64,000 nt of DNA from Candidatus Meridianibacter frigidus (GCA_003243975.1 QHBJ01000005.1:1-64000); one strand, 5' to 3'; positions 9,705 to 24,576 are shown, counted from the first letter of the stretch. Notes: generated from the letters alone by a model not told the origin. Translations and numbers: made by a program.

Positions 9705-10315
9705 AGATCGGCATTTTCGGCGGAACGTTTGATCCGTTACACAACGCCCATCTCTTTATCGCTGAATCCGCGCGCGTACTCGAGAAGCTTGATAAAGTGC
9801 TCTTCGTGCCGACTGACCGCACGCACTACCGCACGCCGGCAACCGCTACCGCCGAAGACCGCTGCGCGATGATCGCGCAGGCGATTGCGAGCAACGTTCA
9901 CTTCGGGCTCGACCGCACAGATTTGCGCGAGGATGCAACCGGCTACACGGCCGATCTGCTTCCCAAATTACGCGCGCGATATCCCGCGGATGGTTTCACG
10001 CTGATCATCGGGGCAGACTCGCTTGCAAGCAACGCCTGGGTGCGCTTAGACGAGATCCTCCAGCAACTCGAAACCTTCGCGATCGCGCCGCGGGCGGGAG
10101 TGAACGAAGCGGCCTTTTCCAATGCGATTGCGGCTATGCCCAGCGCCCTGCGCGGCCGGGTACGAACGCTGAACCTTCCGGAGCTGCCCGAGTCCGCGAC
10201 GCTCATTCGTAGGTTGCTCTCCGAGGGCAAGAGCATCCGCTATCTGCTTCCGGAAGCCGTCTGGCGTTATATTGCCGACCATAATCTCTACGGACTCAAG
10301 GATGAAGTGGCTTAG
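9701..10315 (+). CDS. nadD: Nicotinate-nucleotide adenylyltransferase
   Basis: Adenylates nicotinate mononucleotide with ATP to deamido-NAD in NAD synthesis. The nucleotidyltransferase motif GGTFDPLHNAH is at the N-terminus. The C-terminal region reads SATLIRRLLSEGKSIRYLLPEAVWRYI, here cited in parts: SATLIRR corresponds to the ISSTxIR motif and the rest to the usual GxSIRYLVP block. At 204 aa it has normal length. The obgE-nadD neighbourhood is common, and the ATGA overlap with obgE indicates coupling. Confidence 0.95.
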   Translation: MKIGIFGGTFDPLHNAHLFIAESARVLEKLDKVLFVPTDRTHYRTPATATAEDRCAMIAQAIASNVHFGLDRTDLREDATGYTADLLPKLRARYPADGFTLIIGADSLASNAWVRLDEILQQLETFAIAPRAGVNEAAFSNAIAAMPSALRGRVRTLNLPELPESATLIRRLLSEGKSIRYLLPEAVWRYIADHNLYGLKDEVA

Positions 10316-10694
10316 CGCGGCGCTTACAGTTGTGCTTAGCGGCTGCGGCGCGGCGACCGGTACGTTGTCGCAAGCGCAGGCCGCATGCCAGCGTGGCGCC
10401 TCACACGTAGAAGTGACCTTCAATGGAACGGTCGGCCGAATTTTAGGCGTGAGGCGCGGCCCCAGTGGCACGCATGAAGGGTTTCTTATCCGCCCGGACG
10501 GCGCAGCAACGTCTGAACTCCACGTTGAAGACAACATCGACATAACCGGCTTCATTCCGCTACATCGTTCCGAACGGATCGAACTGCAAGGGCAGTATGA
10601 ATGCAATGACGGCGTTATTCACTGGACACACCGTGACACGCGCGGGCGGCACCCTGCCGGATATATCAAAGCCAACGGCATCACGTATCAATGA
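10302..10694 (+). CDS. DUF3465 family lipoprotein
   Basis: Small (130 aa) protein of unknown function. The ATG at 10302 gives a short lipoprotein signal with lipobox LSGC, so the protein is probably anchored in a membrane facing the periplasm. The C-terminal half carries the DUF3465 pattern: a GRILGVRRG-THEGFLI segment, a DNIDIT block and the hallmark HWTHRDTRGRHPAGY near the end. It overlaps nadD by 14 nt and maf by 4 nt, so it is embedded in the operon. The conserved His/Trp cluster suggests a ligand site, but no activity is known to me. Confidence 0.8.
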   Translation: MKWLSAALTVVLSGCGAATGTLSQAQAACQRGASHVEVTFNGTVGRILGVRRGPSGTHEGFLIRPDGAATSELHVEDNIDITGFIPLHRSERIELQGQYECNDGVIHWTHRDTRGRHPAGYIKANGITYQ

Positions 10695-11325: not shown

Positions 11326-12132
11326 TTGTTTACGTACCGCTATGAGCGCCGGTTATTCGCGTTACTCAGTGTGATTATCGTCGCGGCGCTGGTGGCCCTT
11401 ATTCAAGGGGGTGCCGCGCGCATGGGGTCGATGAGCCCACTGACAGCGACGTTCGGTTCGGCCGGGGCGCTGTTCGAGAACCTCACGGGTGCCGCGAGTT
11501 TGGGCATGCGCAGTGCACTCAAAGGCGCGGCGCGAACCCCGCACCTCACTCGGGAAAACGCAGCGTTGCAGGCTAAAAACGCTGCGCTCGCGCGCGAGAA
11601 TGCGATGCTGCAAGAGCAACTCGCCGCGGCCCGCGGCGCAGCCTCGATCACCTCAGAGATGGCCGACTATCCGCACGCCGTCCCCGCTCGCGTCATCGGC
11701 TATCCTCCGGAGAATGAATCGCTCTCGGTCACGGTCAATCGCGGATCGCGCGCCGGCATCAGCCGCGACGATGGCGTAATGACCGACCGTGGCGCCGTCG
11801 GGCGCGTGTACGAAGCGGGACCGATCGCCAGTAAGGTGGTTCTCATTACCGACTACACGAGCAGCATTCCGGCCATGGTCCAGCGCGGGCGCTGGTGGGG
11901 CGTTGCCAAAGGAAACCTCACCAGCGTCCGCTTGGAGTTCGTTTCCCAAGACGCACCCATTCGCGTGGGCGACCAAGTGGTAACGGGGGAAGCCCGCTCG
12001 TTCCACTCCGGCATCCCTATCGGCACGATCGTACGGGTCGATCGCAGCGCAACCGGATTGTACCAAACCGCCATCGTCAAGCCGGCCGCCGATCTCGCCA
12101 GCCTCGATCATCTTGTCATTCTCCCGAAGTAG
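11326..12132 (+). CDS. mreC: Rod shape-determining protein MreC
   Basis: Bitopic scaffold of the elongasome that links MreB to PBP2. A basic N-terminus and one membrane helix (about 9-28) precede a coiled coil with repeated LTRENAALQAKNAAL-type heptads (about 75-105). The beta-rich C-terminal MreC domain includes VNRGSRAGISRDDGVM and VITDYTSSIPAMV. The start is TTG at 11326, with GGGAG about 10 nt upstream; no ATG fits. It overlaps mreD by 20 nt. mreB is not in the window. Confidence 0.94.
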   Translation: MFTYRYERRLFALLSVIIVAALVALIQGGAARMGSMSPLTATFGSAGALFENLTGAASLGMRSALKGAARTPHLTRENAALQAKNAALARENAMLQEQLAAARGAASITSEMADYPHAVPARVIGYPPENESLSVTVNRGSRAGISRDDGVMTDRGAVGRVYEAGPIASKVVLITDYTSSIPAMVQRGRWWGVAKGNLTSVRLEFVSQDAPIRVGDQVVTGEARSFHSGIPIGTIVRVDRSATGLYQTAIVKPAADLASLDHLVILPK

Positions 12133-12643
12133 AACCCAAGAGGCGCCCTTTGCGGGACCATCGTGGCAGCGGGCCGCAATTTTTTTGGCTGCGGCCCTCT
12201 TAGCGCAGGTGTCGTTTCTTCATTACATCACCGTGCGCGGCGCGACGCTGAGCCCGGTTTTGGTCGTCGTTGTCTGGTACGCCATCGCGGCCGGGGCAGA
12301 GCGAGCGGCGATCTTCGGGCTGGTCGCGGGGCTCTGTGAAGACATGCTCGGCACGTATACTGGTGGCGCGTGGACGGTTGCGACCACGCTCACGGCGATC
12401 GCCGCCGCGCTCCTGTCGCGCGGCTTCTTCGGCGATTCGATCCCGCTAGTTGCCGGCATCGTGATCCTGGCAACGCTCTTACACAAGCTGATCTTTTGGA
12501 TGATGATGCAGGCACAAGGCTACCCTCCCGGCTTGGGCTGGGTACATTTTCACGCCGCGCTGTGGCAGGCAGTCCTCAACGCACTTCTCGTAGCGGCCGT
12601 CATGTTGGTCTTGCGTTACCGAGAAAACGTAGCCCTATCGTGA
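12113..12643 (+). CDS. mreD: Rod shape-determining protein MreD
   Basis: Small polytopic membrane protein (176 aa, about five helices) of the elongasome. Most of the sequence is hydrophobic; the pattern AGLCEDMLGTYTGG in the middle matches the family's conserved G-x-x-x-D segment. Start is TTG at 12113 inside the mreC 3' end. The identification rests on size, topology and its position between mreC and mrdA. Confidence 0.88.
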   Translation: MSFSRSRTQEAPFAGPSWQRAAIFLAAALLAQVSFLHYITVRGATLSPVLVVVVWYAIAAGAERAAIFGLVAGLCEDMLGTYTGGAWTVATTLTAIAAALLSRGFFGDSIPLVAGIVILATLLHKLIFWMMMQAQGYPPGLGWVHFHAALWQAVLNALLVAAVMLVLRYRENVALS

Positions 12644-14478
12644 AGCCGCGCACGCGCTTCGAACGATCGCCGTGGCGGATCGGCGGCTTCATCGCTTTCG
12701 TCGCGTTGGTGGTGCTCATGCTGATCCTGCGCCTCTTCTGGGTGCAGATCGCGCACGGCGAAGAGTATCATGCAGCGGCAACCGCAAATCAGATTCGGCT
12801 TATTCCGGTAGCCGCGCCGCGCGGTATCATCTTCGACCGCGCCGGCAAGGTGTTGGTGCGAAACCGACCCTCGTTTGTGCTTGCGCTCATTCCCTCGGAA
12901 GTGAAGAACATTCGCACCGAGCTGGCACAGATTGCGAGCACGCTTGACATCGGCGAGCAAACGTTGTGGCAGCGCCTGCTGCACCACCGCGGAATAAACT
13001 ACCGCAGCTTCGACGAAGTCCAAACCTACGAGCCGTACGGACCGGTACTTCTAGCTGCCGAACTGACGGTAGCGCAGGCCGCCCGCTTGGCCGAGTTGCA
13101 GAATGATCTGCGGGGCGTCGACCTCGAGGTGCAGCCCGTACGCGACTATCCCTACCACCGTGAGGCATCGCATCTCATCGGTTTCGTGGGCCAGATCACC
13201 GAAGATGAGTACAAAGACCTCAAGTCGCAAGGATACTCGCCCAACGACGTCATCGGCAAAGACGGCTTGGAGTCGCGCTACGACCGTTTCTTACGCGGAA
13301 CACCGGGTGGCGATCAAGTCGAAGTCGACGCGCAAGGCAGCGTCTTCAGGCACTTGGCCAAGCGCGCCGGCGTTCCGGGAAATAGCTTGGTACTCTCTGT
13401 GGACTGGCGGCTTCAGGAGATCGTGGAGAGTGCGCTGCGCAACGGGCTGAAATCCTGGGGGCGCGGCCGGCCGCTTTCGGGGGCGGTCGTCGTTGAAGAT
13501 CCCTGGGACGGCGGGATTCTGGCATTGGCTAGCTACCCCGATTTCGATCCGGGCGACTTTGCCGTGGCCATCTCGTCAAAGAAATTCTCGCACTACATTT
13601 TGGATCCGGGCCGTCCGCTCTTCAACCGCGCGATCGGAGCCGCCACCCCAACCGGTTCCACGTTTAAGATGGTCACCGGTTCGGCGGCTATTACCGAACG
13701 CAAGGTCGGCATCAACGAAGTCGTCTACGACAGCGGCGCGTGGAACTGCGGCGGCGCGCTCTTTCGCGATATCGCCTCCGGCGGACTGGGAGCGACGACA
13801 TTCGTGCCGGCGCTGGCGGCCTCCAGCGACGGATACTTCTATCAAATGTCTTGGCGCCTGGGGAACGCTCTGTTACGCAAGTACGCGTTGGCGTATGGTC
13901 TTAACAAACTCTCGGGCATCGATCTCCCCGGCGAGTATCCGGGCAATTGGCCCACCAACGCATGGTCGATGAAAGTAACCGGCTTGCCGCTGGAGCGCAG
14001 CGATGTGTGCAGCTTGGGCATCGGTCAAGGAGCGATGCAGGCCACACCCTTGCAGATGGCCGGTATCCTGTCAACCGTAATCAACGGTGGTACGCTCTAC
14101 CGGCCGCTCGTCGTGCGCGAAGTGCGCGACCCGCATGGGCTTATCATTCAAAGGTTCGGTGTGATCGTCAACAAGCGCGTTCCGGTAACCAAAGAAGCGC
14201 TGGTCGCGGTGCGCGCCGGCATGGCGAAGGTTACCGACCCCGGAGGCACCGCCTACGGCCTTGCAATCAGCGGGCTGCGGTTCGGGGGAAAGACCGGCAC
14301 GGTCGAAACCGACAATGGCCGCGGCCCGAACACGACTTGGTTTGTCGCCTACGCCCCAAGCGACAAGCCGAAGCTCGCCATGGCGGTATTCGTCGAGCGT
14401 TCGGGCGGATACGGCGCGCAAGTGGCGGCGCCGATTGCCCAGCGCATTCTGGCCGACTACTTTAACAAGAAGCTCTAG
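12640..14478 (+). CDS. mrdA: Penicillin-binding protein 2, elongasome transpeptidase
   Basis: Class B PBP that cross-links peptidoglycan during rod elongation. One N-terminal membrane helix (about 12-32) precedes the dimerisation domain with APRGIIFDRAGKVL. The transpeptidase domain has the SxxK motif in PTGSTFKM (Ser at about 340), SSD in ASSDGYFYQM where SxN is canonical, and KTG in GGKTGTVET (about 551). Start is GTG at 12640, overlapping the mreD stop as GTGA, giving 612 aa, the usual length. It closes the mreC-mreD-mrdA unit. A RodA gene is not adjacent. Confidence 0.95.
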   Translation: MKPRTRFERSPWRIGGFIAFVALVVLMLILRLFWVQIAHGEEYHAAATANQIRLIPVAAPRGIIFDRAGKVLVRNRPSFVLALIPSEVKNIRTELAQIASTLDIGEQTLWQRLLHHRGINYRSFDEVQTYEPYGPVLLAAELTVAQAARLAELQNDLRGVDLEVQPVRDYPYHREASHLIGFVGQITEDEYKDLKSQGYSPNDVIGKDGLESRYDRFLRGTPGGDQVEVDAQGSVFRHLAKRAGVPGNSLVLSVDWRLQEIVESALRNGLKSWGRGRPLSGAVVVEDPWDGGILALASYPDFDPGDFAVAISSKKFSHYILDPGRPLFNRAIGAATPTGSTFKMVTGSAAITERKVGINEVVYDSGAWNCGGALFRDIASGGLGATTFVPALAASSDGYFYQMSWRLGNALLRKYALAYGLNKLSGIDLPGEYPGNWPTNAWSMKVTGLPLERSDVCSLGIGQGAMQATPLQMAGILSTVINGGTLYRPLVVREVRDPHGLIIQRFGVIVNKRVPVTKEALVAVRAGMAKVTDPGGTAYGLAISGLRFGGKTGTVETDNGRGPNTTWFVAYAPSDKPKLAMAVFVERSGGYGAQVAAPIAQRILADYFNKKL

Positions 14479-14480
14479 CG

Positions 14481-14846
14481 CTACGTCAACAGCGAGACCA
14501 TTTGCAGGAGTTCCGCGGTGCGCGCCCCTTCGTGCGAGCGCGCATACCCCTCCAGATCCTTCAAGCAGCCGTTGCGCGCAAGTACGTGCGCCGCGGCCAG
14601 CGCAACGGTAGGTGATGGGTCGTCCAGTGCGGCGATCAAGAGCGTTCGCGACCGCTCGCCTTCCAAATCCCCCATTGCAAAGATCACATCGCACCGTTGC
14701 GCTTCGGAGAGCGCTGCGAAGTCCTCACTCTCCGCCGCAACGGACACAGGGACCACAGCGGCCGATGCCTTTCGCGCAATGAGTGCGTACACGCCGGCCG
14801 CCACGCAGACGATAAAAAGGACCACCAGCGCAAAGATTGAGAGCAC
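14481..14846 (-). CDS. Membrane-anchored small HEAT-like repeat protein
   Basis: Unrecognised 121 aa protein. Residues about 3-25 form one membrane helix. After an Ala/Val-rich linker, residues about 45-120 form alternating helices with the HEAT-like pattern of DPSPTVALAAAHVLARNG, indicating a protein-interaction surface on the cytosolic or periplasmic side. It is 3 nt downstream of the helical reading frame that follows the large repeat protein, so the genes form one minus-strand unit. It converges with mrdA, 2 nt away. No function is proposed. Confidence 0.6.
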   Translation of the reverse strand: MLSIFALVVLFIVCVAAGVYALIARKASAAVVPVSVAAESEDFAALSEAQRCDVIFAMGDLEGERSRTLLIAALDDPSPTVALAAAHVLARNGCLKDLEGYARSHEGARTAELLQMVSLLT

Positions 14847-14849
14847 GCC

Positions 14850-15356
14850 TTAGACCGCGGTGAGTAGGCTGCGCTTCACGCCTTCGAGGGCTCGATCGAG
14901 TTCAGGAAAACGGCCCTGCTGCAGCGCGTTCAAAAAGTCATGCTCGTCGACGTTAACGTAGGGCTCGACCACCGCGAGGAGCGCCGTTCGATACGCGCCC
15001 AAACCCGCGGCAGAATCGCCGACGATCAAAGCGCACGCAGCGAACCACGACGCAGCGGATTCTACTGCGCGCTGCTGTAGGTAATCCGCAGCACGCTGCA
15101 AGCTCGGTACATCCAGAGGGCCGCGCAAACGAGTCGAGCTCAGCGCGGGCGGCGCATTGTCTTGATCGCCCATGAGCTGTGAAACGACGGTTTGCAGCCC
15201 GAGGCGCAACTGAGTGGTGACAATATCGCGCGCGGTAATGCTGTAATCCGGCAACCGCCGTTTAATGAACAGCCGATCCAAAATGTCGCGCGCTTCTTCT
15301 TGTACCACCTGAAGCGCAGCATTCGATTCCGAATGCGCGTCCACGCCGGTGGCCAA
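14850..15356 (-). CDS. Helical C-terminal module, probably the detached end of the repeat protein upstream
   Basis: An open frame of 168 codons predicted to be almost all helical and rich in Ala, Leu, Arg and Gln. A TTG at 15356 could start it, but the coding sense continues upstream in the same frame (SGLARHLFAVRAFLATG) up to about 15400, where the frame of the 18084 gene loses protein-like sequence. The upstream limit is a TAA at 15417-15419 in this frame. I therefore read it as the C-terminal domain of the large repeat protein, separated by a one-base frameshift. It could instead be a separate gene. No family recognised. Confidence 0.5.
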   Translation of the reverse strand: MATGVDAHSESNAALQVVQEEARDILDRLFIKRRLPDYSITARDIVTTQLRLGLQTVVSQLMGDQDNAPPALSSTRLRGPLDVPSLQRAADYLQQRAVESAASWFAACALIVGDSAAGLGAYRTALLAVVEPYVNVDEHDFLNALQQGRFPELDRALEGVKRSLLTAV

Positions 15357-18084
15357 GAAAGCGCGAACCGCGAAAAGATGCCGGGCAAGGCCTGAAATGC
15401 GCTTGCTCCAGGAATTTTAGCGACCGTGCCAACGCCTCCGGAGAGATTTCGAGCACGGAGTCGATGGTTGCTGCCGCTACGTCCCCATTTGTCGCGGAGC
15501 CGCTTTCCAACGACAAGTACGTCGGGCTTGCAAACTGACCGACGCTTGCGCCATTTTCCGCGGGCGTCACGGGCGTGGCGGGCGGCAGCTCAAGGTACCG
15601 CGCGCCGGAATCAGAGAGCGCGCGCTGGCTGCCGGGCGCAAGCAAATAGCCGACCATGCCGTCCAGTCCAAAGGGCAAGCCCGGAACGTTATTGGCGAAG
15701 GCCGGGGAGGAGCGTACTTGCAGCTCCGGCGCGCGGATTTCGTCGTGCCGGTTGCCCTGGTAACTTACGGACGCGACGCGCGCGATGGATTCGCCGGCGG
15801 CCGAGCCACTGTGTACGACCTCCCGCCAGACAACGACCGCTTCAATCCCCGGATCGACGTCCTTGAGAATAATGCCCGGTGCCCCGGCGAAGGGAGCCGC
15901 CGCGCCGACGTCGCGAATTGGGACCCCGTTTACCGTGGTCGTATTGGGCACGTAAATCAGCGCTGGGCTCGAGTCTATACGAATCTCCACTTTGCGAGCA
16001 GCGCCGTCGCCGCCGTTGCGAACGTGCAGCGCGTACTCGACCGTTTCGCCGGCGTCCACGAAGTCCGCCGGCCGGCTTTGCAACAACCCAACAGAGAAGT
16101 CGGGCTCAGCAGTCGTAACGATCGTCAGCGGCTGCAACGGGACCGGTAAAATGGACGTGGCGGTCAGAATTGCGTCCACCGTAACTGGATACTCGCGCGC
16201 GAGACTGCGCAGAAGCCGCAGTCCGAGACGCGCCTCTACCGATGCGCCTGAGGGGATTTGCCCGAAGACGATCGTGGATTTCTCGCGCGTCGCGCCGTCT
16301 ACGCTGTCCAAGCGCGCTTCCGCGGAGATATAGAGCCGCAAGCGCACATCCTGCGCCGTGTCGGTGCCGTCGTTAACGATCTGCACGTACGCATCGGCCA
16401 CCTCGTTTGGGCGCAACGCCTGCGCGCTCATCAAAGAGAGCGTGCAGCGGCCGGCAGAGAATGCCGGGTGCGAATCGACGCGATAGATCGCTGCGCCCAA
16501 TTGCGTTTGCCCGAGTTCCAATGAGTGAAGCGAGGCAGCCAGTTTGAGCTCGGCGCCGTCCCGGAAGGGGGAACGAACGCGTCCGCGCACCGTAAAGCGG
16601 CGCGTGGCGTACGGATCCAGCTGCCCGATCTCGGCAGCGTCATCCGCCAAGACGACTTTCGCATTCTTCTCGAGCAGAACCAAATCTTCAATCGCGGGAT
16701 CGGATTGCACCTCGAGAACCGCGTCGGTGGCCGCAGCACTTCCATCGTTGCGCAACGTTATGAGTGCTTCAACCTCATGGCCCGGCCGCACAGTCGCCGC
16801 GGAAACACGCTCGATCGAATTCCGAGCCATCGAAAAAAACGGTTGCGAAATAACTCTGATCTCCGGCTCCATGCGGCGTGTTTGCGTGCCCGGACTCCAT
16901 TGCAGCTCGAACGCCGGTCGAAGGACCGTTCCGTTTTGAACCGGGGAGGCGACCATCGCAGCGACGCTCAGCTCCACGCTACTGCGAGCATCGACGCGGC
17001 CGAGCTCAAGGGCGACGCTCTCTTTCTTGTGCTTTTCCTTCACCGGCAGCCCGTCCAGCCGGCTTGCACCCCGCACCAAGAGCAGGCCCTCGGGAACATA
17101 AACCGCCGCACTCACATTTTGTGCGGCCATCGTGCCGGAGTTATGCAGCTTCAACCGCATGGTCAGGAGTTCTCCGGGCTGTACCTCACGCGCCGGTTCG
17201 ATGCTGCACGCGTTCTGATCGTCTCGAAATTCAGGCGCCGATGCGATCGCAAGTGTTGCCGGTGGCAATTCGAACGCGGGCGCTTCATGCGATCCGATAC
17301 CGGCTTTGACAACAATCGCAGTCCCGTCGTCGAGCGGATCGTCGATGCGGACGCGGTACGTCAACGTCGCCGTCGCGCTGGCCGGAAGCGAGCGAACGAT
17401 CACCGGCGCATAGATGCGATCGAAAGGTGCGCGCAGTTCGGCTTCGATTTCGCGGCCGTTCACCCGGGCAGAGTTCGCGATGTAGACGGTATGGTCGGGG
17501 ATCGGCGCAAGTACGACCACGTCGTGTGCGCTGGATTCGCCCGCGTTGTGAACGCGCAGCGTTATCACCGCTTCTCCACCGGGTCGCGCCTGATGCGAAC
17601 GCGATTCGATGTCCACATTTGTCAGTGCGTTGGCCAACACCGGGTGCGAGCGGACGACGAAGCGCGCGATGTTCGATCCAACCGGCGATATCTCGAAGGC
17701 GGCGACGGCGGCCTGCAATTCTACTACCGTGCCGTTCTCGATGGCGCCCGCGACGCTATAAGCGATTCCGGCGCAGCGCTCTTCTCCCGGCGCAACGTCG
17801 CCAATATGGGCACCATTGGACGAGAGGAAGGGGCAGTTTCCGCGCTCGTCTTCGAGGGGATCGCCGTCGAGTTGCGCGCTGCCAACCAGGTACACGAGCC
17901 CATCGGGCATATTCATGCGAACGCGCACGCCGGTTGCCATAGCACCGCCTTGGTTGCGGAAAGTAAAACTCGCACGCACGGTCATTCCAGGTTCGAGCGC
18001 GCGCTCGGGAGAAATGACCAGGGTTCGGAGACCCTCGGGTAGAGTCGGTGCTCCCGGCGTGAAGACTTCCGTCAGGGTGCGCAT
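15262..18084 (-). CDS. Six-repeat DUF11/CARDB-like protein, frameshifted near its C-terminus
   Basis: Large beta-rich protein of unknown function. Six Ig-like units of about 120-135 aa each have the DUF11 pattern (RPGGEAVITLRVHNAGES-type strand, then V-P-D, then a G-x-x-x-G segment). Units are separated by a recurring linker SxPxF: residues 146, 282, 413, 538, 659 and 792 begin SHPVL, SAPEF, SQPFF, SHPAF, AEPDF and SSPAF. There is no signal peptide, membrane helix or sorting motif, and an in-frame stop lies just before the ATG at 18084, so the N-terminus is real; the protein seems cytosolic. Coding sense ends near residue 895 (about 15400) and resumes one frame over. Confidence 0.65.
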   Translation of the reverse strand: MRTLTEVFTPGAPTLPEGLRTLVISPERALEPGMTVRASFTFRNQGGAMATGVRVRMNMPDGLVYLVGSAQLDGDPLEDERGNCPFLSSNGAHIGDVAPGEERCAGIAYSVAGAIENGTVVELQAAVAAFEISPVGSNIARFVVRSHPVLANALTNVDIESRSHQARPGGEAVITLRVHNAGESSAHDVVVLAPIPDHTVYIANSARVNGREIEAELRAPFDRIYAPVIVRSLPASATATLTYRVRIDDPLDDGTAIVVKAGIGSHEAPAFELPPATLAIASAPEFRDDQNACSIEPAREVQPGELLTMRLKLHNSGTMAAQNVSAAVYVPEGLLLVRGASRLDGLPVKEKHKKESVALELGRVDARSSVELSVAAMVASPVQNGTVLRPAFELQWSPGTQTRRMEPEIRVISQPFFSMARNSIERVSAATVRPGHEVEALITLRNDGSAAATDAVLEVQSDPAIEDLVLLEKNAKVVLADDAAEIGQLDPYATRRFTVRGRVRSPFRDGAELKLAASLHSLELGQTQLGAAIYRVDSHPAFSAGRCTLSLMSAQALRPNEVADAYVQIVNDGTDTAQDVRLRLYISAEARLDSVDGATREKSTIVFGQIPSGASVEARLGLRLLRSLAREYPVTVDAILTATSILPVPLQPLTIVTTAEPDFSVGLLQSRPADFVDAGETVEYALHVRNGGDGAARKVEIRIDSSPALIYVPNTTTVNGVPIRDVGAAAPFAGAPGIILKDVDPGIEAVVVWREVVHSGSAAGESIARVASVSYQGNRHDEIRAPELQVRSSPAFANNVPGLPFGLDGMVGYLLAPGSQRALSDSGARYLELPPATPVTPAENGASVGQFASPTYLSLESGSATNGDVAAATIDSVLEISPEALARSLKFLEQAHFRPCPASFRGSRFLGHRRGRAFGIECCASGGTRRSARHFGSAVH

Positions 18085-18138: not shown

Positions 18139-19329
18139 ATGATCGCAACGTCCGCCGATCGCATCTGTGAGGCCGTCTCGCGCCTGGGCAGCGAGAGTGC
18201 TTTTGAAGTTCTCGCGCGTGCGCGCGCGCTGGAAGCCAAGGGTCGTAAGATCGTGCATATGGAGATCGGCGAACCCGACTTCGAAACGCCCGAACATATC
18301 AAGGAAGCGGCGATCAAAGCCATTCGCGAGAACCATTCGCATTACACGCCTTCGGCGGGCATCGTCGAGCTGCGCGATACCATCGCCGATTACGCGAGCA
18401 ATTTCCGCAAGATGCCCGGTGCGTTCACGCGCGAGAATGTGGTCGTGGCGCCGGGAGCCAAACCCATCATTTGGAATACACTGTCGGCGCTGCTGAACCC
18501 GGGCGACGAACTCATCTATGCGGATCCCGCGTATCCCGCATATGCGTCCGCTGCGAGCTACTTGGAAGCTAAAGTCACGCCTATTCCGCTGCTCGAGAGC
18601 AAGAACTTTCGCCTGGACCTCGACGAACTCGAGAACAAAGTATCCGCGCGCACGAAAGTGCTGGTCATCAACACTCCCCACAATCCGACCGGCGGTGTCC
18701 TGCTGCGCTCAGACCTCCAGCGCATCGCCGACCTTGCCCACAAGCACGATTTCCTAGTGCTATCCGATGAAATCTACAGCCGTAATTTCTACGAGAGCGA
18801 GTTCCTTTCGATCTCCGAGCTACCTGGCATGAAAGAGCGCACCATCATCGTGGACGGGTTCTCAAAGGCGTACGCGATGACCGGATGGCGTTTGGGCTAC
18901 GCGATTCTTCCACCGGAATTGGCGCCCGTTGTGACGCTCTTCAATAACAACACGTTCTCGTGCGTTGCTACGTTCGTGCAGATGGCAGGCATTGCCGCAC
19001 TCACCGGGCCAGACGAGCCGGTGCGACGCATGAACGATATCTTCCGCGAACGCCGGGACCGGCTCGTCAGAGGACTCAACCGCATCCCGGAAATTTCATG
19101 CACCATGCCCGAGGGGGCGTTCTACGCTTTTCCCAACGTTTCGCAGATCACTCACGACGACAAAGCGCTCGCCGCCTTTATGCTTAATGAGGCGGGGGTT
19201 GCGTGTTTGGGCGGATCCGCGTTTGGTTCGGCGGGAAGAGGGTATCTGCGCTTCAGCTACGCGGCATCCCTGGACGACATCGACCTTGCGCTGGAGCGCA
19301 TTGCCGAACATACACCAAACTTTCGTTAG
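18139..19329 (+). CDS. PLP-dependent class I aminotransferase (aspartate aminotransferase type)
   Basis: Fold-type I aminotransferase, 396 aa. The PLP lysine is in VDGFSKAYAMTGWRLGY (Lys 243), with the partner Asp in LVLSDEIYSRNF (Asp 210) and Asn in NTPHNPTGG. The overall pattern (GEPDFETPEHIKEAA, SHYTPSAGI) matches the aspartate aminotransferase Ib subgroup. The exact amino donor cannot be told from sequence; alanine or aromatic specificity is possible. It is divergent from the repeat-protein gene with a 54 nt gap, and two VOC genes follow it on the same strand. Confidence 0.9.
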   Translation: MIATSADRICEAVSRLGSESAFEVLARARALEAKGRKIVHMEIGEPDFETPEHIKEAAIKAIRENHSHYTPSAGIVELRDTIADYASNFRKMPGAFTRENVVVAPGAKPIIWNTLSALLNPGDELIYADPAYPAYASAASYLEAKVTPIPLLESKNFRLDLDELENKVSARTKVLVINTPHNPTGGVLLRSDLQRIADLAHKHDFLVLSDEIYSRNFYESEFLSISELPGMKERTIIVDGFSKAYAMTGWRLGYAILPPELAPVVTLFNNNTFSCVATFVQMAGIAALTGPDEPVRRMNDIFRERRDRLVRGLNRIPEISCTMPEGAFYAFPNVSQITHDDKALAAFMLNEAGVACLGGSAFGSAGRGYLRFSYAASLDDIDLALERIAEHTPNFR

Positions 19330-22395: not shown

Positions 22396-22619
22396 TCAAG
22401 GTCGTCGCGGACGGAGCGTGCATCCGGCTTCTTTTGATCGCCGCTTAGGCGCGCGTTCCGTTCGGCAAAGAAGACGAACCCGGCTGCAAAACACATTGCG
22501 GCGCCCATGAAAGCCAGCAGGATGGTACCACCCGGATCCCGGCTGCAAAACCAATACACAAGCGCGATGGCGACGCCGAAGATGGCCGAATTGAGAAAAA
22601 CGCGCACTCCCGTCTTCAT
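22335..22619 (-). pseudogene. N-terminal half of CtaF-like subunit IV, frameshifted
   Basis: Begins ATG at 22619, overlapping the coxA remnant stop as ATGA. The first 75 codons hold two membrane helices (FLNSAIFGVAIALVYWF and TILLAFMGAAMCFAAGF) and a charged loop ending VRDDLE, as in CtaF of actinobacterial-type aa3 oxidases. After about 22398 the frame becomes unlike the family, while the frame one base over continues with the missing helices. One extra G in GAGTG near 22395 would restore a single protein of about 130 aa. Confidence 0.65.
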
Positions 22620-23245
22620 TTGACCGCGGCAATCGCCATCTCCGGATGATGCAAATCGAAAACCGGGCGCTCCGATCGAATCGGCGGCAGCGACGTAAAG
22701 TTGAATTCGGGCGGCGGGCTGCTGGTGGCCCATTCCAAGGTATATGCGTCCCAGGGATTGTCGCTCACCGGCTCGTGTGCGACGGCACTTCCAATGACGT
22801 TTCCGATGAAGACAATCACACCGACTGCCATGATTGCGGCCCCAATGCTGGCAATCAAATTTAGCACCGCCAAATCGCCGGTGTTTGCGTAGGTGAACAC
22901 ACGGCGCGGCATCCCTTCCAGCCCCATGATATACATCGGAAAGAAGGTCGCATTGAACCCGCTGAAGAGCAGGGCGAACGACCACTTGCCCGAGCGCTCA
23001 CCCAATTTGATCCCGAAGATCTTCGGAAACCAGAAGAAGAGCGCGGCAAAGACCGCAAAGAGACTTCCGCCCGCCAGCGTGTAGTGAAAGTGGCTTACCA
23101 AGAAGTAACTGTCCTCGGCGTGAAAGTCGATCGGCGGGGAAGCCACCATGACCCCGGTGATACCGCCGATCAGGAAGTTGAGCATGAAGCCGATCACGAA
23201 AAGCATCGGCGTCGTCAGCGAAATGGAGCCGCGCCACCAAGACAT
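22616..23245 (-). pseudogene. ctaD: C-terminal remnant of cytochrome c oxidase subunit I
   Basis: Homology starts abruptly near 23236 with WRGSISLTTPMLF and runs through the heme-ligand motif SHFHYTLAGG (heme a and a3 histidines), FFPMYIMGLEGMPRR, and the usual C-terminal helices to the stop. About 320-340 N-terminal residues are absent, including the GHPEVY loop with a CuB histidine and the His-His CuB pair, so this piece cannot form a working oxygen-reducing site. The in-frame ATG at 23245 belongs to the upstream coxB sequence. Immediately upstream in another frame is the start of coxB. Confidence 0.85.
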
Positions 23246-23339
23246 AGACGATGGCGGCAATACCGAGAGCAACAAGAACAAAAATCTGCCAGTCACCCAG
23301 CGTTTGACCCTGCGATGTTGCGACCTCGGGCAAGAGCAT
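23229..23339 (-). pseudogene. ctaC: N-terminal remnant of cytochrome c oxidase subunit II
   Basis: An ATG at 23339 with a good AGGAG 5-7 nt upstream begins LLPEVATSQGQTLGDWQ followed by the first membrane helix (IFVLVALGIAAIVYVLVA). This is the normal opening of subunit II. After about 36 codons (near 23236) it runs out of frame into the subunit I sequence; the second helix and the CuA domain are missing. The join gives an out-of-frame product ending at 22998. Confidence 0.75.
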
Positions 23340-23394
23340 ATCGCTCCTATTCCCACCGCAAGAATCTTCTACCCGGCGCGCGCTGCACCGACGT

Positions 23395-24576
23395 TTAAGG
23401 CACTTCCAATTCCATCTCTTCGGGCTCCTCGCCGGGCTTGAAAAGCGTCTGCGCAACCCACGTGGGCACAATGGCGGTGAGAATGACCACGGTCACCAGC
23501 GCCGTGTATTGGGCCCGCGTAATATAGTGGTGCGTCAACCCGTACAGACTCGAAATCGTTCCGAACGTCAGCCCGGTCGCCATCATGAGGGTCAGATAGT
23601 TGCTGTTTGCAGGCGAATATTTGAAAGCGAAGCGTGCGAGCGGAAAGACTCCGAACATTTTTGCTATCATCTTCACGAAGAAGAGTGCAGCAATTAAGCC
23701 CGCACCGTTCGCGGCCGCGGCCAGTGAAACGTACGTGCCGGCCTTCAAGAAATAGAACGGCGCAAGCAACGCCATGGTCAAAGACTGCAGCCGGCGCTTG
23801 ATGTCTGGGTACGTCAACAACATGCCCGCGCAGGCCAAGCCCATGAAGTAAGCCGGCAGAACGCCTTCGCTGCGCGCCGAAGCGGCAAGTGCGGCGAGCA
23901 CGAAGATCACCGCGAATAGGATGCGCAGGCCCGGTTCGCTCACGTAACGCCGCGTACGCTCGATGATCGGCGGCAGGACCTTGGGCACGATTAGCATCGC
24001 GCAAAGGATTGCCACGCAAAGCAAGACGAGCCAAGCATTGTAGTTTGCAAACAGCAGCCCCAGCGCGACGACGGTCCCTACGTCGGTAAAGAAGCATGCT
24101 GCAAGAATGAGCTGACCGAACTCTTCGGCAGCGAGTCCGGACTCGATCATGACCGCATAGACAACGGCCACCGAGGTTGTCGACATGGCTATGCCGGCGA
24201 TCTTTGCGGCATCCGGTGACCAATGCGCGACGAAGTGCGCGTAGGCCATTGCAGCCAGAAATGGGGCTGCGAATGACGCACCGCCCAGCACGGTAGAAGG
24301 TATAATCTGGCGACGCAAAACAGCCGGGTCGATCTCGGCGCCCGCCAAGAACGTCAAGAGAATGCTCCCGAATCCGGCGACGAAATCGATCCACGCGTTG
24401 GTGCGAAGCGCGATGAGGTTGCCGGCAAGGATTCCGGCGATAATCTCCACCAAGGCGGCGGGCATTTTGATACGAATCGCGGCAATCGCGCTCAGAGCGG
24501 CCAAAAACATCCATACGCCTGCGATGAGCCACATGTTCGCCGAGTCAAGATGCAACAAAAGAGAAACTCCCGTCAA
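23395..24576 (-). CDS. CPA2-type cation/proton antiporter
   Basis: Integral membrane protein (393 aa, 11-12 helices) of the KefB/NapA-like monovalent cation:proton antiporter family. The family's GxLLGNL-type segment reads GILAGNLIA, and LTFLAGAEIDP corresponds to the conserved LxFLxGLExD block with its acidic residue. There is no C-terminal RCK/TrkA domain. TTG at 24576 is used; Met 15 is an alternative. It lies just upstream of the coxB remnant on the same strand and is divergent from ctaE. The ion (Na+ or K+) cannot be read from sequence. Confidence 0.85.
   Translation of the reverse strand: MTGVSLLLHLDSANMWLIAGVWMFLAALSAIAAIRIKMPAALVEIIAGILAGNLIALRTNAWIDFVAGFGSILLTFLAGAEIDPAVLRRQIIPSTVLGGASFAAPFLAAMAYAHFVAHWSPDAAKIAGIAMSTTSVAVVYAVMIESGLAAEEFGQLILAACFFTDVGTVVALGLLFANYNAWLVLLCVAILCAMLIVPKVLPPIIERTRRYVSEPGLRILFAVIFVLAALAASARSEGVLPAYFMGLACAGMLLTYPDIKRRLQSLTMALLAPFYFLKAGTYVSLAAAANGAGLIAALFFVKMIAKMFGVFPLARFAFKYSPANSNYLTLMMATGLTFGTISSLYGLTHHYITRAQYTALVTVVILTAIVPTWVAQTLFKPGEEPEEMELEVP

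Follow-up and report, generated by a model that had tools for sequence, protein, structure and literature searches.

A protein of six Ig-like repeats and its membrane-anchored HEAT partner in Candidatus Eremiobacterota: a candidate cytoplasmic module of type IV pili

The tandem Ig-like repeats of the DUF11/TIGR01451 (B_ant_repeat), CARDB and NPCBM_assoc (NEW3) types are usually extracellular, and DUF11 surface proteins are marked by an export signal together with a surface anchor. Long cytoplasmic rods of Ig units are found in the Ig-repeat proteins of the eukaryotic ciliary central apparatus. The parts and regulators of type IV pili (T4P), such as PilM, PilN, PilO and proteins of the FimX/FimV type, and the proteins of the HEAT_2 family (PF13646) provide further points of reference for the present work.

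We report the analysis of a locus from Candidatus Meridianibacter frigidus that resembles each of these systems in part. The window, by which we mean the whole stretch of DNA analysed (64,000 nucleotides; QHBJ01000005.1:1-64000 of GCA_003243975.1), comes from a genome of 1.95 Mb in 43 contigs, 96% complete, of Candidatus Eremiobacterota, to which all the named relatives of the repeat protein also belong, the remainder being bins. This protein, REP, clearly matches the DUF11, CARDB and NEW3 proteins in its six Ig domains; unlike them, it has neither a signal peptide nor a wall or membrane anchor, it ends in a helical domain (CT) with no match to a known fold, and it is accompanied by a HEAT protein predicted to face the cytoplasm. 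The HEAT partner resembles the HEAT_2 proteins by a match that is weak for the window copy (20.3 bits against a curated cut-off of 27.7 bits) and above cut-off for a relative of family f2 (33.9 bits against 27.7 bits), and it differs from them in being short, in its N-terminal membrane anchor, in always adjoining CT and in having no enzyme partner. With the T4P parts and regulators the CT-HEAT pair shares a place, in two lineages, in operons of pilM-N-O-P-Q and pilB/T/C genes, the adjacency of GGDEF and HD-GYP genes, and a predicted position on the cytoplasmic face of the inner membrane. It differs from them in that no sequence similarity was found to any known pilus protein, and in that CT is absent from f3, a sister family with classical pili, and present in some genomes without pili.

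The features of the locus, in window coordinates, are as follows.

15262..18084 (-): REP gene frame as read in the window, 940 aa by translation (orthologues 1,056-1,255 aa without stops); from the N-terminus, a tail, six Ig domains of DUF11 type, the Pro-rich linker, the first part of CT and about 35 out-of-frame residues
15712..18063 (-): the six Ig/DUF11-like repeats together, from linker positions, Pfam/NCBIfam and the AlphaFold model of an orthologue
17650-18063, 17242-17649, 16849-17241, 16474-16848, 16111-16473 and 15712-16110 (-): the Ig repeats singly
15463..15711 (-): Pro-rich, low-complexity linker; the corresponding stretch of the orthologue model, residues 795-858, is disordered
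15394..15397 (-): frameshift site, at which the window has one base too many or two too few for the frame of the orthologues
14850..15416 (-): CT, the C-terminal helical domain, in the shifted frame (match of a CT-model profile to the window, E 1.2e-53)
14850-15356 (-): extent over which CT can be annotated as a 168-aa ORF with a TTG start
14481..14846 (-): HEAT gene, 121 aa, with a GTG start 3 bases past the CT stop; N-terminal membrane helix (predicted N-out/C-in) and HEAT-like repeats
12640..14478 (+): mrdA (PBP2), flanking the insertion site in convergent orientation, outside the unit
18139..19329 (+): aminotransferase of the aspC type, flanking the insertion site in divergent orientation, outside the unit

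Elsewhere in the window, the space between nadD and maf is taken by a DUF3465 protein (10272-10694), a position kept across the family. At 22616-23356 (-) only the C-terminal third of COX1/CtaD is present (Pfam profile positions 295-436 of 436), abutting a Na/H exchanger gene at 23395-24576; the truncation may reflect deletion, recombination or a chimeric assembly. The same genome has a complete COX1 on contig C38 and a frame-broken COX1 on contig C32.

The six Ig-like repeats of the original prediction are borne out by the linker positions, by matches to DUF11/TIGR01451 at E 1e-25 to 1e-27 in Pfam and NCBIfam (PF01345, E 3.8e-25; TIGR01451, E 1.3e-26 in an orthologue and E 2.2e-26 in the window), which identify tandem DUF11-type Ig domains, and by the orthologue AlphaFold model, in which six beta-sandwiches are followed by the disordered stretch and a folded C-terminus. 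The regular SxPxF linker proposed to recur about every 125 residues stands in part. The linkers begin at aa 146, 282, 413, 538, 659 and 792, giving spacings of 136, 131, 125, 121 and 133, and the motif [SAT]xPx[FLW] occurs seven times against 2.0 expected in shuffled sequences, 0.25% of which reach 7; the fit is, however, loose (SHPVL and AEPDF, for example), and each linker is simply the strand with which a DUF11/CARDB unit ordinarily opens, not a dedicated spacer. When the whole REP model was searched with Foldseek, the best matches were the Ig-repeat chains of the ciliary central apparatus (E 1.7e-24), with PrgB, complement and integrins, tandem-Ig proteins in general, among the further matches. 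The resemblance to the ciliary proteins is one of fold only, at 10-13% identity and low TM-scores, a tandem-Ig likeness common to complement and integrins from which we claim no kinship. A REP profile gave a sole match among PDB sequences, at E 0.2.

The helical C-terminal module was also correctly foreseen, but not its standing as a separate gene. REP orthologues (50-58% identity) are single frames of 1,056-1,255 aa without an internal stop, so that the 168-aa helical ORF of the window is the REP C-terminus in a shifted frame; judged from these orthologues, the module is the C-terminal domain of one REP protein of about 1,060 aa, and the architecture as a whole is supported by orthologues in some 20 genomes. 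The last 35 or so residues of the 940-aa ORF are accordingly an out-of-frame translation. Among the orthologues compared, a frameshift near 15,394-15,397 occurs only in the window copy, and since no stop interrupts the shifted CT frame before its natural end the break is either recent or an error. Sequence error is plausible because COX1 on contig C32 of the same assembly also changes frame; the REP frameshift thus represents either early decay or an error of sequence. It might instead be that the split is real and functional in this genome, the Ig part and CT being two proteins, as the open CT frame and the CT-only genes that adjoin HEAT in some relatives would allow; this we regard as quite improbable, because no other orthologue is split at this place, the break falls inside the first helix region of CT, and the broken COX1 points to sequence errors. 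A programmed frameshift was rejected, since no other orthologue has one.

The CT model of an orthologue is very confident (pLDDT 95.6, pTM 0.92), and a fold search of the PDB with it found no match, the best being at E 0.9 with a probability of 0.04. A fold search of a viral structure library likewise returned no match, and CT gave no family above cut-off in Pfam or NCBIfam and no match among PDB sequences.

The original prediction placed REP in the cytosol, noting the lack of a signal peptide and an in-frame stop just before the start, and the comparison with relatives agrees. In the window the REP frame has a TAG three codons ahead of its ATG, the N-terminus LTEVFAPGxPxLPEGLRTL is conserved, and the orthologues of about 20 genomes align from residue 1. 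Over their first 60 residues, 30 orthologues were without a hydrophobic segment, no 19-residue span exceeding a hydropathy of 1.38. A signal peptide, which would have counted against the original prediction, was looked for in the orthologues and none was found, so that the export signal and surface anchor of the DUF11 surface proteins are lacking from REP in these 30 orthologues.

The small membrane-anchored HEAT-like protein described in the same unit is indeed there, as the gene of 121 aa that begins 3 bases downstream of the CT stop. Its N-terminus is uncharged and is followed by one hydrophobic helix and then by positive charges (Arg/Lys), from which the HEAT domain is predicted to lie inside. 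The HEAT gene is co-inherited with CT, and REP-HEAT is duplicated as a pair in relatives; in genus g24, HEAT and CT are fused into one TM-HEAT-CT polypeptide, and the two are therefore predicted to share one side of the membrane, which on the sequence evidence is most likely the cytoplasmic side. The fusion gene stands directly after REP in g24, at 11362-12741 of locus L030 and also in L062, L063, L065 and L069. Taken together, the predicted HEAT topology, the HEAT-CT fusion and the absence of signal peptides support the idea of a cytosolic scaffold tethered to the membrane. That REP might be exported as a surface protein or adhesin by a route without a Sec signal, as the usual location of DUF11, CARDB and NEW3 repeats would lead one to expect, we consider very improbable: the signal peptide is absent from every REP orthologue, CT can be fused behind a membrane helix and a HEAT domain with an inside-positive flank, and the CT proteins of the pilus operons described below have neither Ig repeats nor a signal.

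In most members of family f1 the unit, frequently in a duplicated form (REP-HEAT-REPB), lies between mrdA and aspC; some carry a second HEAT, and in others REPB has shrunk to roughly CT alone. The position beside mrdA had suggested a relation to the elongasome, in which the unit would work with MreC, MreD and PBP2, a suggestion that the relatives do not sustain. In many of them mrdA directly adjoins aspC without the unit, no stable association with mre or mrd genes was found across them, and other lineages carry the unit elsewhere: beside a flagellin gene in the sister family f2, and beside a SpoIIE-type regulator in G007, whose single contig of 3,508,363 bases holds two REP-HEAT units. In g8, too, the unit has another site, and in lineages other than f2 its neighbours are unrelated genes. 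Genomes of f2 and of g8 have more than one copy, in different contexts. The unit is, moreover, convergent with mrdA, and elongasome genes persist where REP has been lost. The elongasome neighbourhood is therefore a chance of the insertion site, and we give a working link to the elongasome hardly any credence. Three T4P-less genomes keep scars of 23-34 N-terminal REP residues at the mrdA-aspC junction; these, all within residues 1-46, lie at 2054-2155 of L195, 2031-2102 of L194 and 9606-9674 of L187. The f2 loci L036, L034 and L037 have a conserved neighbourhood in which REP-HEAT is followed by the flagellin gene and a large protein of CarboxypepD_reg repeats. A third conserved gene after HEAT in g8 and f2 was considered and set aside, the frames of about 600 aa being mostly antisense artefacts or unrelated secreted proteins.

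The functional neighbour that does recur is the T4P machine: two lineages outside the window encode the unit with pilus genes, although the window locus does not. Long REP is missing from one clade of f1 (G003, G013, G015, G016, G022, G078 and G101); here a pilM-N-O-P-Q operon has, after the secretin, a CT protein of about 340-440 aa. HEAT comes next in G003, G013, G015, G022 and G078, so that both genes lie between the secretin and the pilus ATPase, while for G016 and G101 CT was recorded; the pilus ATPase and GGDEF genes come after HEAT wherever the contig could be read that far, and mrdA lies directly next to aspC wherever that locus was read. In the f2 genome G026, a REP-HEAT copy sits inside an operon with pilB, pilT, pilC, a prepilin peptidase, a PilN protein, a secretin, GGDEF and HD-GYP. 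The HEAT gene of this operon is followed by a protein of 586 aa (L108, 4344-6104) with no Pfam match, the N-terminus of which looks prepilin-like by eye. Homology of CT to a known pilus protein was found neither in Pfam, NCBIfam and PDB sequences nor by fold search, and we found no paper on DUF11 or HEAT proteins as cytoplasmic pilus parts; contact of CT or HEAT with a pilus protein is putative.

To follow the unit against the presence of pili we used PilT (E below 1e-30), T2SSE, the secretin and T2SSF as markers; PilM was rejected as a sole marker, its weak hits spanning only profile positions of about 142-236 in frames of about 420 aa, as FtsA-like proteins do. Counting the genomes of the order that are at least 90% complete, with states transcribed by hand and G078 added after its pilus operon had been read, CT is present in 40 of 40 PilT-positive and 11 of 20 PilT-negative genomes (naive Fisher p 1.1e-5), and all 9 complete-enough genomes without CT are also without T4P. 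On a tree of 50 genomes built from aspC, mrdA and trpS, there are 10 changes of T4P state and 8 of CT, which is missing solely in T4P-less tips; of the phylogenetically independent pairs, 4-5 agree and none disagrees, an underpowered comparison (p 0.06-0.125). One PilT-positive genome of 84% completeness, G093, showed no CT.

A strict dependence of REP on the pilus was rejected, as T4P-less genomes keep REP mostly intact and under purifying selection, with dN/dS of 0.06 between G024 and G105 and 0.22 in pairs from genus g37; REP can therefore be useful without this pilus, and may have another or a broader role. The presence of CT in 11 good T4P-less genomes, and the distance of the mrdA-locus unit from pilus genes, count against a pilus reading. 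They may be explained if REP-HEAT at the mrdA locus is a pilus-independent cytoplasmic scaffold of its own, organising for example the envelope or general secretion, with the pilus-operon copies a related branch that keeps the same CT-HEAT coupling. The intact, constrained REP of T4P-less genomes, including the whole of g37, the conserved chromosomal site with no pilus genes beside it and the multiple copies in different contexts in f2 and g8 would all fit; the lack of T4P in every complete-enough CT-less genome, and the REP deletion scars in T4P-less genomes, do not, and we judge this explanation rather unlikely.

In the pilus reading, REP would be one cytoplasmic protein composed of a six-Ig rod, a flexible linker and the folded CT, which the small inner-membrane HEAT protein would bind and hold at the membrane, near the inner-membrane pilus complex. 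The CT-HEAT pair would then be a lineage-specific cytoplasmic T4P platform in this order of Eremiobacterota, with a role in the assembly or regulation of the pilus, and other components would be reached or spaced by the N-terminal part, which varies from six or three Ig domains to two short repeats. This reading is built on the domain architecture, the co-inherited and once fused CT-HEAT pair, the places within pilus operons of two lineages and the co-occurrence of CT with PilT. In the window genome we found no homologue of the secretin, T2SSE/pilus ATPase, PilT or T2SSF/PilC, and REP therefore cannot serve a pilus there; the window copy would be an orphan in a genome that has lost every pilus marker searched, and this orphaning together with the frameshift suggests that the window REP is decaying, if the break is not an error of sequence. 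We put the chances of this best-supported reading, a membrane-tethered T4P module with an orphaned and perhaps decaying window copy, at about even, our confidence being no more than moderate because some pilus-less genomes keep the unit under purifying selection. It is a more tentative suggestion that CT with its new fold, held by HEAT, and the intracellular Ig rod constitute a new class of cytoplasmic T4P platform within one order of the Eremiobacterota. We know of no precedent among bacterial Ig repeats for an intracellular Ig rod with a HEAT-held CT.

The pilus idea can be tested, since a relative, Vulcanimicrobium alpinus WC8-2, is in culture, bears visible type IV pili and is phototactic (PMC9758169). 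Should the link to pili fail, CT and HEAT remain a sound new pair of domain families, with gene fusion as evidence of partnership. If the link is true, the pilus machine of an entire order, in a phylum with hardly any cultured members, would include an additional cytoplasmic module, the central domain of which is without a match among solved structures or in Pfam and NCBIfam, and REP would clearly exemplify the use of long DUF11-type Ig repeats as an intracellular scaffold.
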